Source: a bacterium (GTDB taxonomy: Bacteria > Actinomycetota > Acidimicrobiia > Spongiisociales > UBA5794). From it: DNA of 59,886 nt. Every line of letters starts with the position of its first letter. Position 1 is the stretch's first letter. Shown here one piece after another: positions 36,808 to 42,414 of this stretch. The stretch is taken from NCBI GenBank assembly GCA_024228555.1, contig JAAETI010000921.1, forward strand, positions 1 through 59,886, written 5' to 3'. Below the pieces are notes generated by a model, which saw nothing but the letters and a program-made list of their open reading frames with translations, made no database searches and was not told where the DNA came from. A program made the position numbers and the translations under genes.

Positions 36808-37506
36808 GTGCAGGAGCAGGACACGAGGAGGGCTGGGATCACCGACGGAGCGCGGTCGGTGGCGCCGTTGCTCCTTGCAGTTGTCCCTTTCGGTCTGGTG
36901 CTTGGCGTCACCGCGGCGGCTTCCACGGTTGGGGGCGGACTCGGGATCGCAACATCGTTCATCATCTTTGCGGGTGCGGCGCAATTGGTGACGGTTCAGC
37001 TGATGGACAGCGGCACCAGCCTTGCTGTGGTTGTCCTCACTGCCCTCGTGGTGAACGTGCGACACCTCATGTACAGCGCAGCCTTGGCTCCGCATTTCAG
37101 CGAGTTCCCTCGCCGATCTCGGTTGCTGCTCCCCTATGTATTGACGGACCAGGCCTTTGCGGTGTCGATGCTTCGCTACGAGACAACCACCGACCCCCTC
37201 TACAAGCGCTGGTTCTACACCGGGGCCGCGTTCACGCTGTGGGGTTCATGGCAGGTGGCCACTGTCGCCGGAGTCGTGCTTGGCGCACAGATACCGGCGT
37301 CGTTGGGTTTGGGCTTTGCGATACCTCTTGTCTTCCTGGTCCTACTGATTCCGGTCGTGCAGACCCGCCCCGGTTTGGTCGCGGGGATAGTGGGCGGAGT
37401 TGTCGCTGTTGCAGCCAGTGCCGCTCCGTTCGGATTGGGTCTTGTGACCGGGGCGCTGATGGGCGTTGGCGCCGGAGTCATGATGGAACGGGCAGGGCAT
37501 CGCTGA
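36808..37506 (+). CDS. azlC: AzlC-family branched-chain amino acid exporter, large subunit
   Basis: The 232-residue protein has the AzlC motifs PFGLVLGVTAAA, FAGAAQLVTVQLM and VVNVRHLMYSAALAPHF, then DQAFAV in the middle. AzlC/AzlD form a membrane complex exporting branched-chain amino acids or analogues. The start is GTG 36808 after AGGGAG. It overlaps azlD by 1 nt. Confidence 0.92.
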   Translation: MQEQDTRRAGITDGARSVAPLLLAVVPFGLVLGVTAAASTVGGGLGIATSFIIFAGAAQLVTVQLMDSGTSLAVVVLTALVVNVRHLMYSAALAPHFSEFPRRSRLLLPYVLTDQAFAVSMLRYETTTDPLYKRWFYTGAAFTLWGSWQVATVAGVVLGAQIPASLGLGFAIPLVFLVLLIPVVQTRPGLVAGIVGGVVAVAASAAPFGLGLVTGALMGVGAGVMMERAGHR

Positions 37507-37817
37507 TGTGGGGTGCAGTTGTCATCATCGGCCTCGGTACCTACCTCACTCGGCTGTCGTTTATCGGTGCGTTCGGTGAACGAAAGATGCCGGCATGGAT
37601 GGAGCTACCGCTGCGCTACGTCGCTCCTGCTGTCCTGGGCGCCATTGTGTTGCCTGCCGTCCTGATGCCCGACGGTGTCGTCGAGTTTGCCCCGACCGTG
37701 AACCCACGGTTTCTCGCTGCGGTCATCGCCGGAGCGGTTGCGTACAAGTGGCGGAACGTTTCGCTGGTGATCGCCGTCGGTATGGCCTCGCTCTGGGTCC
37801 TCGACTGGCTCTTCTAG
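37506..37817 (+). CDS. azlD: AzlD-family exporter small subunit
   Basis: The 103-residue protein has four membrane segments and the AzlD signature G-T-Y-L-T-R near the N-terminus and LRYVAPAVLGAIVLPA. ATG 37506 overlaps the azlC stop (TGATG). It is the partner of AzlC. Confidence 0.9.
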   Translation: MWGAVVIIGLGTYLTRLSFIGAFGERKMPAWMELPLRYVAPAVLGAIVLPAVLMPDGVVEFAPTVNPRFLAAVIAGAVAYKWRNVSLVIAVGMASLWVLDWLF

Positions 37818-37937
37818 CATTGTTTAGCCGTGATTTATCCGAGGATTGTCAATGGCATAACTGCCCATCGGCCACAATCGATGAGTGAGCTACTGCACAC
37901 TTCCAACTCGTAGAACACAGCGTCGCGGAGGGCTGTG

Positions 37938-38426
37938 TTGAGGCTGCCAAGGCTGTCTCGACGCGACTTTCTTTCCCGAATGGTCGGAGCCGTAGCCGGC
38001 TGCATGGCCGCCCTTATCGGCGTCCCCAGCGCAGTGTTTCTGATAGGCCCATCTCAGGAACGCTCTGCGGGAGGATGGGTTCCGGTGGGGTCTGTCGGCG
38101 AAATCCCGCTCAACCAGCCCACTCTCTTCAACACGACGGTTGCCAAGCAGCGCGGTTGGGTTGTCGAACAACAGGAACTCTCAGTCTTTGTTTCCACACA
38201 AGACGGCACCGACTTCGTGGCACTCTCTGATCGCTGCACTCATCTGGCGTGCCGGGTCCGCTTTGTGGATGAGATGGAGCAGACCGCCAAACCGGGCTTC
38301 TTCTGCCCGTGTCACAACGGAGTCTTCGACGCAAGCGGGGAGATTGTTGCGGGGCCGATTCCACGACCACTGGACCGATTCGACACGAAGGTCGAAGAAG
38401 GCCAGCTGTTTGTGAAGGAGGTCTAG
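37938..38426 (+). CDS. qcrA: Rieske iron-sulfur subunit of a cytochrome bc complex
   Basis: The protein has about 162 residues. The N-terminus carries a twin-arginine signal (SRRDFLSR) followed by one membrane anchor (AVAGCMAALIGVPSAVFLIG). The cluster ligands form C-T-H-L-A-C (about 100-105) and C-P-C-H-N-G (about 123-128). This short, single-anchor form differs from the long three-helix QcrA usual in actinobacteria and resembles the b6f/Bacillus type. The start is TTG 37938, 6 nt after GGAGG (GTG 37935 is possible). First gene of the operon. Confidence 0.92.
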   Translation: MRLPRLSRRDFLSRMVGAVAGCMAALIGVPSAVFLIGPSQERSAGGWVPVGSVGEIPLNQPTLFNTTVAKQRGWVVEQQELSVFVSTQDGTDFVALSDRCTHLACRVRFVDEMEQTAKPGFFCPCHNGVFDASGEIVAGPIPRPLDRFDTKVEEGQLFVKEV

Positions 38427-38430
38427 CCGG

Positions 38431-39117
38431 ATGGGGACTCGGCTTGGCGATTGGATTGACGAGCGCAGCTCTTGGCGTGAGGGGTGGAGCCGAGTGTTTC
38501 TTGCGCGCATACCTCGTGTGTCGTGGGGGCACACGCTCGGTGCCGCCACTCTCATCTCCATCGTGGTCCTCATGGTCACCGGGCTGTTGCTGACTGTTTA
38601 CTACGTTGCCAGCCCCACGGACGCACACCAGAGCGTGCAATACGTCACCAACGTGGTGCCTCTCGGATGGCTTATCCGCGGGCTCCATCACTGGGCCGCC
38701 AGCGCACTCGTTGTGCTCGCCATTGCACACCTGATCAGAGTGATCGCTCATGGTGCCTACAAGTACCCCCGCGAATTCACTTGGTATAGCGGGATTGCGC
38801 TCCTGCTCCTCGTATTTGCGTTTGGCGTGACCGGAAGCCTGCTGCCATGGGATCAGCGGGCCTACTGGGCAACCCAGGTTCGCATCGAGATCTTTGCGAC
38901 TGTCCCACTTATCGGTGATTGGTTCGCTCGCTTCATCCAGGGCGGCGAGGAGTTGTCTGGGTTGACCCTGAGCCGGTTCTACGCTGCCCACGTCTGGCTG
39001 CTGCCCCTTCTCTTGGTCGGTCTGCTGTGGACCCACCTCCGGTTGGTGGTGCGTCATGGAATCTCCGCAAGCCCCAGAGAGCGAAGAGGCCCACGGCGGA
39101 GGATGTGGCACCGATGA
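38431..39117 (+). CDS. qcrB: Cytochrome b (b6-type, N-terminal four-helix part)
   Basis: The 228-residue protein has four helices. Heme ligands are in HHWAASALVVLAIAH (13 residues between) and HVWLLPLLLVGLLWTH (14 residues between). The 14-residue second spacing is the mark of b6-type rather than mitochondrial-type cytochrome b. No Cys for a covalent heme ci is visible. It starts 4 nt after the Rieske stop, following GGAGG. The C-terminal helices are encoded separately in the next gene, whose ATG overlaps this stop. Confidence 0.92.
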   Translation: MGTRLGDWIDERSSWREGWSRVFLARIPRVSWGHTLGAATLISIVVLMVTGLLLTVYYVASPTDAHQSVQYVTNVVPLGWLIRGLHHWAASALVVLAIAHLIRVIAHGAYKYPREFTWYSGIALLLLVFAFGVTGSLLPWDQRAYWATQVRIEIFATVPLIGDWFARFIQGGEELSGLTLSRFYAAHVWLLPLLLVGLLWTHLRLVVRHGISASPRERRGPRRRMWHR

Positions 39118-40436
39118 GAGCGGACGAGGAAGCTCGCTATCTCGAGGAGTATCGGGAAGACGTACGGGGCGGCGAGCCATACTTCCCGCGCTATGCCTTG
39201 CGGGACACATCGGTGGGTCTAGGGATCATTGTGGTGCTGATGGCGTTGTCAGCGTGGCTGGGCGCACCTCTCGACGAGCAAGCCGATCCGCTGGCCACTG
39301 AGTACGTGCCACGCCCCGAGTGGTACTTCTTCTTCATATTCCAGTTGCTCAAGTACTTCAGCGGCGAGTGGGAGGTTGTCGGCATCGTTGTGATTCCGGT
39401 GCTGGCCGTGGTCTTTCTGGCACTACTGCCGTTTCTCGACCGGTCCCGCACCAGGCATTATCGCACCCGCCCGATTGTCACCGGGACCACCTTGCTCCTG
39501 CTGGTGGGTGGTGTAGTTCTGACAATCATTGCGGTCGCGGAGGCTCCGCCTCCGGCCGATGCCTCGGTCCTCACGTTCGAGGCTGCCGCTGTGGATGGGG
39601 CGGGCCTCTTTTCTGCCCAGTGCGCCATTTGCCACGGTGACTTCGGTGAGGGAGCGCCGAACCCGGCCCAGCCCGGTGACATCACTGCCCCGATCAGCAC
39701 CGCTGAGTATCTCGAAAGTCGTACTGATGCCACTATCCGCGAGGCCATTTCTGCCGGCTTCCCTCAGTTCGGTATGGCTGCGTTTGAGGTGGCCCATGGC
39801 GGACCGCTCCAAGCCAATGAAGTTGATGCGATCGTGGCCCACATTCGGCATTGGGAAATTGAACCACCTGTAGCCCTTGATCCTGCCGTCTCCGACGCAG
39901 CACTGTCGGAGAGCGCAGAGTTCCTCTTCCCACAGTTCTGTGCGCAGTGCCATGGCGATGTCGGCCAAGGCGGCGTTGGCCCTGCGTTCTCCGACGCCGA
40001 GCTACAGCAAGCGCGAACGGATCAGCAACTCTTTGATAGCATCAACCTGGGCCATGAAGCAACGGCGATGATCGCCTGGGGTGAGGTTCTCACCCAAACC
40101 CAGATCGAGGGGCTGGTTCAGCACATCAGGTCCCTTGGCAATGCAGGGCGGCCTGGAGAGCTGAGCTACACCCTCGACGTGCTTCCAATCTTCGAGGTTC
40201 GCTGCGTCGCTTGTCATGGAACCGCGGGAGGCTGGGACGCCACGACGTGGCAATTGGCGATCAGCTCTGGCGACAACGCTCCTGTGGTGTTGCCGGGCGA
40301 CTCCGCTAACAGCAGCCTCGCACAAATGATGTTGGGCACTCATCCCGAGGGTGTGCTCATGCCACCCGACGGACTTTTGCCCGATCCTCTTGTTCAGCTA
40401 GTCGTCGATTGGATAGAGGGAGGAGCGCTCGAATGA
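39114..40436 (+). CDS. Cytochrome b subunit IV fused to a triheme cytochrome c
   Basis: The protein has 440 residues. Residues about 1-130 are subunit IV-like, with the Qo-site motif P-E-W-Y-F-F and helices to about 120. After another membrane segment (TGTTLLLLVGGVVLTIIAVAEA) come three c-type heme sites: CAICH, CAQCH and CVACH. The first two lie in cytochrome-c-like domains. The third is in a planctomycete-type cytochrome c-like domain ending MPPDG. ATG 39114 overlaps the cytochrome b stop (ATGA). It would receive electrons from the Rieske centre and pass them outward. Confidence 0.9.
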   Translation: MRADEEARYLEEYREDVRGGEPYFPRYALRDTSVGLGIIVVLMALSAWLGAPLDEQADPLATEYVPRPEWYFFFIFQLLKYFSGEWEVVGIVVIPVLAVVFLALLPFLDRSRTRHYRTRPIVTGTTLLLLVGGVVLTIIAVAEAPPPADASVLTFEAAAVDGAGLFSAQCAICHGDFGEGAPNPAQPGDITAPISTAEYLESRTDATIREAISAGFPQFGMAAFEVAHGGPLQANEVDAIVAHIRHWEIEPPVALDPAVSDAALSESAEFLFPQFCAQCHGDVGQGGVGPAFSDAELQQARTDQQLFDSINLGHEATAMIAWGEVLTQTQIEGLVQHIRSLGNAGRPGELSYTLDVLPIFEVRCVACHGTAGGWDATTWQLAISSGDNAPVVLPGDSANSSLAQMMLGTHPEGVLMPPDGLLPDPLVQLVVDWIEGGALE

Positions 40437-42346
40437 CGAGCCCCACACCGACCCGCCTGCCCCGAATCTCAGTAGTTGTGTCATGGATACTGGCCCTCTT
40501 CATAGGGGTGATCGTGTTTGCCAGCGCAGACACAGCCGCAGCCAAGTCGGGGTTTCTTGGCGACTTCAACGCGATCTATGGCACGGCGGGAACGCCTCTC
40601 GATTCGTGCTCGCTTTGTCACACGAACGTCCCGGCCGTGAACAGCTATGGCGCCGACTGGAAGAGCAACGGCAAGAGTTTCTCTGCGATCGACGGCATGG
40701 ACTCCGACGGTGATGGGTGGCCGAATCTCCAGGAGATCCAGGCGCTGACCATGCCAGGCGACTCCTCGAGCACTCCGCCACCGGCGACGACTACGACCCA
40801 GCCTCCGGGGTCGACCACGACTACAACACAACCGACGACGACGACCACAACCTTGCCGCCAACGGGGAACGGCCCGCTCAGCTTCGACTTCAAGGATTTC
40901 GATGTTCCCGGATCGGTTGATGTAACCAACGGCAGCGTCACCAGAGAGATCAAGGTGAAGCTCGAAATAGAAGACGCCGCCGACGGCTCCAATGTCACCA
41001 CAGATATTCAACTCTGGGCGAACGGGCAACTTGCCCAGACCATCACGAGGACCAAGAAGGCCGAGGATGACGGCGAGGTCGAGCTTGAGGTCAAATTCAC
41101 CTTCACCTTCAACTCCTCACACGTTCCGAAGATCAACTGGTGGGCAATTGCAGTAGTTGCCGGCCAGGCGTCGGCTCCCGAGACCGCTTCGACGACGGTG
41201 ACGGGCCCGCCACCGCCGACAACCACGCAGCCACCAGGGACGACGACAACGCAACCTCCCGGTACCTCAACCACCCAGCCTCCGAGTACATCGACAACGC
41301 AGCCCCCGTCGGGCGGGCCCAACGGCGCCGCCATTTACGCAGCCTCCTGCGCTGGGTGTCATGGGGCAGATGGCAGCGGTGGTTTCGGCGGGCCGGTCGC
41401 GGGGACCTCGATGAGCCTTAGCGAAGTCGTGACGATCACTGCAGATGGTGCCCCGGGGATGCCGGCCTTCTCTGGCGGACTGTCGGGCGCCGAAATTGAT
41501 GCGGTGTCGGCGTATGTGCTCACCCTAAGCGGAGGCGGTGAGCCGCCGGTCACGACTACGACGACACTTCCACCGGGTACGCCACCGGGAAGTGGCGCTG
41601 CGCTCTATCGCCAGCATTGTGCAGGGTGTCACGGTGTCAACGCCGATGGTGGGCCGGGTGGGCCGTTGGTTGGCTCGTCACTCAGCTTTGCACAACAGGT
41701 CTCGGTCACCGCACAGGGTTCCGGGGGGATGCCCGGCTTCAGCTCAGTACTCACGGGCGGCGAGATCGACTCGATCATTCGATATGTCCAGGGTCTCGGT
41801 GGTCCGGGATCAACGACAACGACGACAGCCCCGCCTGATCAGGAAAGCGGTGCCGCCATCTATGGCCGCCTCTGTGCTGCCTGCCATGGCGGTGATGGAT
41901 CGGGCGGCCCTGGCGGGCCCATCCTGGGTACGGGCTATCACGGCTCAGCCCTAACCGGAGTCATCGGCGACGGCGTTGGAACCATGCCGGGCTTTGGATC
42001 ACAGCTGAATGACGGCCAGATGACGCGGCTCGTCGCATATGTCGAGGGTCTTGCCAGCGGAACGATTATCCCCGGCGAGGACGGTGATGCCGATCTGGCG
42101 CTGCTCGGCGAGGACGGTCTTGTGAACCCGGCTGAAGGTTTTGCGGGACATCTGTCTGAGCGCGATGTGGCTGAAGGCAGCGAGAGTGGTGCGCTTGGTG
42201 GCGAACTCGCAGCGGCATCGCCGTTGCCGGTTGGCAACCCTGTTGGCTGGACACTCGCCCTGGCGATAGCCGCCTTCCTGATCGCAGTCGGGTCGGCAAT
42301 CACCGGTGCCATGCCTCGCGAGACAGAGGAGCGTGCGGCTTCGTAG
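40433..42346 (+). CDS. Membrane-anchored tetraheme cytochrome c with Thr/Pro linkers
   Basis: The 637-residue protein has an N-terminal membrane/signal segment (about 12-34) and a C-terminal helix (WTLALAIAAFLIAVGSAI). Heme sites are CSLCH (near 58), then CAGCH, CAGCH and CAACH in three cytochrome c modules (about 300-550). Each is separated by TTTT/PPGT-rich linkers typical of extracytoplasmic actinobacterial proteins. The region after the first heme holds a Ca-binding-like DSDGDGWPN. A beta-rich domain (about 145-250) has no recognised family. It overlaps the triheme gene by 4 nt and is probably a dedicated electron acceptor of this bc complex. Confidence 0.88.
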   Translation: MTSPTPTRLPRISVVVSWILALFIGVIVFASADTAAAKSGFLGDFNAIYGTAGTPLDSCSLCHTNVPAVNSYGADWKSNGKSFSAIDGMDSDGDGWPNLQEIQALTMPGDSSSTPPPATTTTQPPGSTTTTTQPTTTTTTLPPTGNGPLSFDFKDFDVPGSVDVTNGSVTREIKVKLEIEDAADGSNVTTDIQLWANGQLAQTITRTKKAEDDGEVELEVKFTFTFNSSHVPKINWWAIAVVAGQASAPETASTTVTGPPPPTTTQPPGTTTTQPPGTSTTQPPSTSTTQPPSGGPNGAAIYAASCAGCHGADGSGGFGGPVAGTSMSLSEVVTITADGAPGMPAFSGGLSGAEIDAVSAYVLTLSGGGEPPVTTTTTLPPGTPPGSGAALYRQHCAGCHGVNADGGPGGPLVGSSLSFAQQVSVTAQGSGGMPGFSSVLTGGEIDSIIRYVQGLGGPGSTTTTTAPPDQESGAAIYGRLCAACHGGDGSGGPGGPILGTGYHGSALTGVIGDGVGTMPGFGSQLNDGQMTRLVAYVEGLASGTIIPGEDGDADLALLGEDGLVNPAEGFAGHLSERDVAEGSESGALGGELAAASPLPVGNPVGWTLALAIAAFLIAVGSAITGAMPRETEERAAS

Positions 42347-42414
42347 GCGGACGCAGGCCCTTCTGATTGTCGTTGACGTCGATGCATGCCAACCTATGGA
42401 CTCAGCGGGTCTAA

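Follow-up and report, generated by a model that had tools for sequence, protein, structure and literature searches.

What kind of bc complex is encoded by a four-gene operon in a bacterium of the UBA5794 lineage (Actinomycetota, Acidimicrobiia), and where would its electrons go? The operon occupies positions 37935-42346 on the plus strand of contig JAAETI010000921.1 (assembly GCA_024228555.1), a stretch of 59,886 nucleotides referred to here as the window. It encodes a Rieske protein, a cytochrome b, a subunit IV fused to a triheme cytochrome c, and an anchored tetraheme cytochrome c. A first-pass annotation of the sequence had reported these four genes at this place and proposed that they form a lineage of complex different from the actinobacterial QcrCAB; both statements are borne out. 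The operon probably (about 0.68) encodes an accessory Rieske/cytochrome b quinol:cytochrome c oxidoreductase belonging to a lineage that is b6-like, split, and multiheme; the complex would feed a terminal oxidase via tethered cytochromes.

Comparison with QcrCAB and Other bc Complexes

Relatives of the window complex were obtained from a scan of 84,980 species genomes. The cytochrome b tree comprises 119 rows, including 24 QcrB and C145, a second bc complex that this genome encodes; it holds no rows from anammox bacteria, Bacillus, or heliobacteria. The window forms a clade (support 100/100) with L012 and L013, its closest relatives by cytochrome b identity (84% and 79%, respectively). This clade falls within an 18-row Acidimicrobiia-Chloroflexota clade (99/93) that stands apart from the 24 QcrB (100/100) and from the genome's own C145 complex. 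The same 18 rows are recovered in the Rieske tree with a Shimodaira-Hasegawa-like approximate likelihood ratio test (SH-aLRT) value of 95. Matches to the QcrCAB family models are far below the cut-offs: the 228-residue cytochrome b scores 112 bits against the QcrB model NF050120 (cut-off 500), the 163-residue Rieske protein, on its separate branch, 32 bits against the QcrA model NF050121 (cut-off 275), and the two c-type subunits, with three and four hemes versus the diheme of the family, 38.5 and 54.4 bits against the QcrC model NF050122 (cut-off 200). Judged by these trees and scores, the window complex is not QcrCAB and belongs to a separate lineage. QcrCAB (the bcc-aa3 type) shares with it the class of function, a multiheme anchored c subunit, and a 14-residue histidine spacing, but has an unsplit QcrB, a long QcrA, and a diheme QcrC.

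The QcrABC complex of Bacillus, a menaquinol:cytochrome c reductase, has a split cytochrome b and a subunit IV fused to cytochrome c; in Bacillus, subunit IV bears a single heme, and a cysteine of the heme-c(n) type is present. The window complex differs in having three hemes on subunit IV, an extra tetraheme subunit, and threonine at the cysteine site. The b6-like complexes of anammox bacteria (Kustd1480-1485 and Kuste4569-4574) contain multiheme c proteins (hexa- or octaheme), a five-helix subunit IV, modelled hemes c(N), and a high-potential Rieske protein with the serine, and their proposed role is NAD(P)H formation (PMC12954380). They resemble the window complex in pairing a split, b6-like cytochrome b with a subunit IV and in having a multiheme c protein in place of cytochrome f. 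The window complex is thus a variant of a known enzyme class and not a new kind of enzyme. Literature searches found no name, study, or description of these operons, and a survey of UBA5794 mentions complex III only in general (PMC12008989). The literature searched appears to contain no report of this lineage of Actinomycetota and Chloroflexota, of its modular heme strings, or of two contrasting split complexes in a single genome.

Cytochrome b and the Rieske Protein

The four genes are consecutive (Table 1), with the Rieske and cytochrome b genes 4 bases apart and the second and third, as well as the third and fourth, overlapping as ATGA. The operon is one tightly coupled unit. At the sequence level, its products carry the ligands of a Rieske cluster, four heme-b histidines, a PEWY motif, a membrane anchor, and, divided between two subunits coupled within the operon, seven heme-c sites.

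The cytochrome b has four transmembrane stretches, and its heme-b histidines form pairs 13 and 14 residues apart; the PEWY Qo motif is on subunit IV. The 14-residue spacing of the second pair had been read as a b6-type feature. The spacing is indeed 14, but it occurs in 25 of 25 canonical QcrB examined and was rejected as a marker. The division into a four-helix b6 part and subunit IV, as in the b6f/b6c group, was confirmed, although it appears to be the norm of the class and does not set the complex apart from its own relatives. The cysteine for heme c(n), also known as c(i), which characterizes the b6f/b6c group is absent. In the alignment, threonine stands where b6 structures have this cysteine (HTLGA versus YCLGG), and across the clade with the basal sequence L024 included the column holds threonine in 18 of 19 rows and alanine in one. 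No cytochrome f is found among the Pfam or NCBIfam matches of the operon; its c domains are PF00034/PF13442.

The Rieske protein starts with GTG at 37935 or with TTG at 37938, the choice of the first-pass annotation, which has the better Shine-Dalgarno spacing. Box I (CTHLAC) and box II (CPCHNGVF) provide the two cysteine and two histidine ligands. Box I (38235-38252) is CTHLAC, not CTHLGC, in the window and L012 but not in L013, and CTHFAC occurs in many Chloroflexota Rieske proteins of the set. Box II lacks the serine and tyrosine that raise the potential, both of which are kept in the C145 Rieske protein (CPCHGSKY). In the yeast protein, losing the serine and tyrosine costs about 130 and 65 mV, respectively (PMC12954380). 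The window complex is therefore predicted to have a lower Rieske potential than the C145 complex.

The Multiheme Subunits

Seven c-type heme sites had been assigned to two dedicated subunits, and this 3+4 arrangement stands. The triheme protein contains 6 cysteines and the tetraheme protein 8, and all 14 lie inside the seven CxxCH motifs. Shuffled versions of the two proteins yield a mean of 0.002 (triheme) and 0.001 (tetraheme) such motifs, so the sites are not due to chance. Both L012 and L013 have the same layout and keep the sites at 60-70% protein identity. The ratio of nonsynonymous to synonymous rates (dN/dS) of the tetraheme gene, c4, is about 0.16, a value computable for one pair only, with synonymous sites near saturation.

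Subunit IV is matched by PF00032, followed by PF00034, PF13442, and a weak PSCyt1 domain. The tetraheme protein begins with a signal peptide and a distal heme domain. An immunoglobulin (Ig)-like spacer comes next, then three class I c domains carried on Thr/Pro linkers, and the chain ends in a C-terminal membrane anchor. The spacer is the sole fairly confident part of the structure models, with Z-scores up to 9.2 to surface-adhesin repeats. The tetraheme protein has full-length matches in no genomes other than those of L012 and L013.

Table 1. Coordinates of the operon and its features in the window
Feature	Position	Strand	Basis
Rieske iron-sulfur protein, twin-arginine (Tat) signal-anchor SRRDFL	37935..38426	+	PF00355, E 4.5e-12; box comparison; Rieske tree
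Cytochrome b, four-helix, b6-like	38431..39117	+	PF00033, E 4.1e-44; alignment to b6 structures; column counts; tree
Subunit IV with three fused c-type heme domains	39114..40436	+	ATGA overlap with cytochrome b stop; Pfam; collinear with domains 5-7 of heptaheme relatives
CxxCH 1 of subunit IV-c3 (CAICH), followed by a conserved Met (FGM)	39621..39635	+	
CxxCH 2 of subunit IV-c3 (CAQCH)	39939..39953	+	
CxxCH 3 of subunit IV-c3 (CVACH, PSCyt1-like domain)	40203..40217	+	Pfam, alignment
Tetraheme cytochrome c	40433..42346	+	ATGA overlap; Pfam, 3x PF13442; 4 CxxCH hold all 8 Cys
CxxCH 1 of tetraheme protein (CSLCH, N-terminal distal domain)	40607..40621	+	
Ig-like/CARDB-like beta-sandwich spacer, residues about 145-252	40865..41188	+	Predicted structure; fold only
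CxxCH 2 of tetraheme protein (CAGCH)	41348..41362	+	
CxxCH 3 of tetraheme protein (CAGCH)	41618..41632	+	
CxxCH 4 of tetraheme protein (CAACH)	41873..41887	+	
C-terminal transmembrane anchor, helix 603-625	42239..42307	+	Sequence and model; decayed copy in congener G319 (L203:11654-11745)
Module lacking at this site, between azlD and the acyltransferase gene, in four congeners	37818..42414	+	Synteny of L203-L206; remnant in L203

Natural Variants in Heme Number

The relatives are operons from metagenome-assembled genomes (MAGs) of Acidimicrobiia and Chloroflexota (L012-L023, G030, G038, G046, G062, G090, G101, and G109). They share with the window a Rieske protein whose box II lacks serine and tyrosine, a split four-helix cytochrome b with threonine (in one case alanine) at the heme-c(n) position, and a subunit IV whose fused heme-c domains 5-7 follow the same order, except that L021 has no domain 6. 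Those beyond L012 and L013 differ from the window in carrying mostly 6-8 hemes on subunit IV, and several also have separate anchored strings of 6-9 hemes on the same Thr/Pro linkers. By alignment, the three heme domains of the window are collinear with domains 5, 6, and 7 of a heptaheme subunit IV, domains 1-4 being absent. Given the 6-8 hemes and the 6-9-heme companions of its relatives, the window version is, on these sequences, among the smaller ones of its clade. The basal Anaerolineae sequence L024 has a subunit IV with two hemes.

Loss of domains 1-4 in the window lineage is favoured by the trees (support 99/86 and 88/90) but is not secured. Primitive absence remains an alternative because the approximately unbiased (AU) test retains a clade of the 15 higher-heme rows (p 0.38). 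That the tetraheme protein might be a split-off piece of a heptaheme subunit IV was rejected. Outside L012 and L013, its best matches are the separate companion cytochromes, to which its c domains are 36-42% identical (E about 1e-34 to 1e-36, versus 1e-10 to 1e-17 for the subunit IV strings).

Larger arrangements were also seen. G090 holds two operons (L183 and L184) with anchored 6- and 9-heme cytochromes and PKD-like spacers, and one of these operons sums to about 24 heme-c sites. In family f4 (L179:5767-9780, L180, and L181), an operon with a subunit IV-c8 is followed by a 598-residue protein that resembles GltD at its start and a ferredoxin at its end, and then by a second cytochrome b and Rieske protein; this locus possibly encodes an NAD(P)H-linked Rieske/cytochrome b complex.

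Other Respiratory Genes of the Genome

The genome contains three cytochrome b loci: the window, C145, and C243. The first-pass annotation had suggested looking for a second, canonical qcrCAB and for the terminal oxidase. No canonical QcrB or qcrCAB was found in the genome (best QcrB score 107 bits, cut-off 500), and the other bc complex is that of C145. Terminal oxidases were found, namely an aa3 type on C890 (TIGR02891, above cut-off) and a cbb3-like type on C145.

The C145 complex (L092) resembles that of the window in its split b6-like cytochrome b, Rieske protein, and multiheme c protein, but is only distantly related. It has a 2x[4Fe-4S] ferredoxin gene, the heme-c(n) cysteine, a 277-residue Rieske protein with serine and tyrosine, and a 531-residue diheme c protein. 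At this locus (L092:6859-12114), whose bc complex is the one typical of the class, a four-helix membrane protein that has no NCBIfam match lies near the b6-like cytochrome b, and a cbb3-like oxidase I/II fusion adjoins. On C243, a cytochrome b-ferredoxin-cytochrome c fusion is found beside a heme-copper oxidase. The order (L093:5457-10894) is an oxidase subunit I with HPLVY, the 776-residue fusion (cytochrome b, 2x[4Fe-4S], FlpD-like, cytochrome c), and a third protein, which has a beta-lactamase fold of the ODP family and, close to the N terminus, a CxxCH motif. CcmC- and CcmF-like genes of System I cytochrome c maturation lie at C486:56670-58832, and there is no ResB match in the genome.

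In a survey of the class, 189 of 198 genomes gave some match, and window-type matches above 360 bits were confined to 8. The weaker matches, mostly 175-195 bits, are nearly universal. Most of them fall within open frames of about 260-300 residues, individual genes among them not all having been inspected, and for this reason the class norm appears to be a cytochrome b of the split b6 type.

Distribution and Loss in Congeners

Strong window-type cytochrome b matches elsewhere in the family are found in G332 (L012), G334 (L013), G335, and G344. In four of six congeners, both flanks are conserved in gene order, with identities mostly of 70-89%, and the acyltransferase gene directly follows azlD. 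These empty sites had suggested a recent insertion of the operon, an idea withdrawn once a remnant was seen in congener G319. Within its azlD-acyltransferase gap (L203:11617-11853), a decayed match to the tetraheme anchor is retained, 75% identical over 93 bases with one base missing (E 5e-13; 61.7 bits versus 31 bits for the best of 200 shuffles). Given this remnant in G319, the operon was present in an ancestor shared by these two genomes at the least, and was then lost. The sequence record thus indicates that the operon is an accessory, dispensable module lost as a unit in relatives. The azlC/azlD genes lie upstream of the operon in the window (36808-37817) and downstream of operons of this type in L015 and L016, which is perhaps an old neighbourhood.

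Proposed Mechanism and Alternative Explanations

In the proposed mechanism, quinol (probably menaquinol) would be oxidized at the Qo site. One electron would pass to the hemes b and to a Qi site devoid of heme c(n), and the other to a comparatively low-potential Rieske cluster and then to the hemes on subunit IV. These may in turn reduce the anchored tetraheme string, which would replace a diffusible cytochrome c and reduce a terminal oxidase; the genome has oxidase genes of the aa3 and cbb3-like types. The outward direction of the string is inferred from topology only. Several points weigh against this assignment. No oxidase gene lies near the operon, and both the quinol:cytochrome c reductase function and the acceptor are predictions; the cytochrome c maturation genes are known from two Pfam matches only. 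The structure models are poor, with a mean predicted local distance difference test (pLDDT) score of 35.5 and 59.2, and no heme geometry is claimed from them. Two residues are also an unreliable guide to Rieske potential, since the Kustd1480 Rieske protein is at +335 mV although it lacks the tyrosine (PMC12954380).

The same tethered string could instead be an entry to extracellular electron transfer, crossing the cell wall to an external acceptor. The C-terminal anchor, the heme domains and Ig-like spacer reaching outward on Thr/Pro linkers, and the longer strings of relatives (6-9 hemes, PKD-like spacers) fit this idea, but flexible linkers of about 20-30 residues give no continuous heme wire, and anchored c domains are also plain tethered cytochrome c in other Gram-positives. 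With oxidases present and no surface multiheme partner found, though none was looked for, such a role is unlikely. Slightly more doubtful still is a broader form of it, in which a low-potential, heme-c(n)-free lineage with tethered strings of 7 to about 20 hemes would pass quinol electrons through the Gram-positive wall to an outside acceptor beside a high-potential complex in the same cell.

It is improbable that the complex is an ordinary variant of the class-typical one, redundant with C145 and with multiheme subunits of no special role. The rarity of strong matches and their loss in congeners, set against nearly universal C145-type matches, would agree with redundancy. The deep separate lineage, the differences in Rieske box II and at the heme-c(n) position, the retention of CxxCH at 60-70% identity, and the c4 dN/dS of about 0.16 (dS saturated) argue otherwise. 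Some bc complexes of lithotrophs run uphill, and an outward-facing heme string could be reduced by an external donor, for instance Fe(II) or nitrite, and pass the electrons to quinone. Reverse operation is nevertheless very improbable here, as a Rieske protein lacking both potential-raising residues would disfavour high-potential donors and no donor oxidase lies near the operon. Contamination of the bin was rejected and is scarcely conceivable: the genome (5.4 Mb) is larger than those of its congeners and very fragmented, and these congeners lack the operon, but its flanks are syntenic in four of them and one keeps a remnant at the same site.

Implications

QcrCAB is not the only bc complex of Actinomycetota, and two split complexes can occur together in a single cell, with predicted differences in Rieske potential and at the heme-c(n) site. 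The module described here is an accessory one, lost as a unit in close relatives, and its acceptor side is composed of repeatable cytochrome beads. The natural length variants (3+4, 7, 7+6, and 8 hemes) make electron exit from a bc complex in the absence of soluble cytochrome c open to testing.

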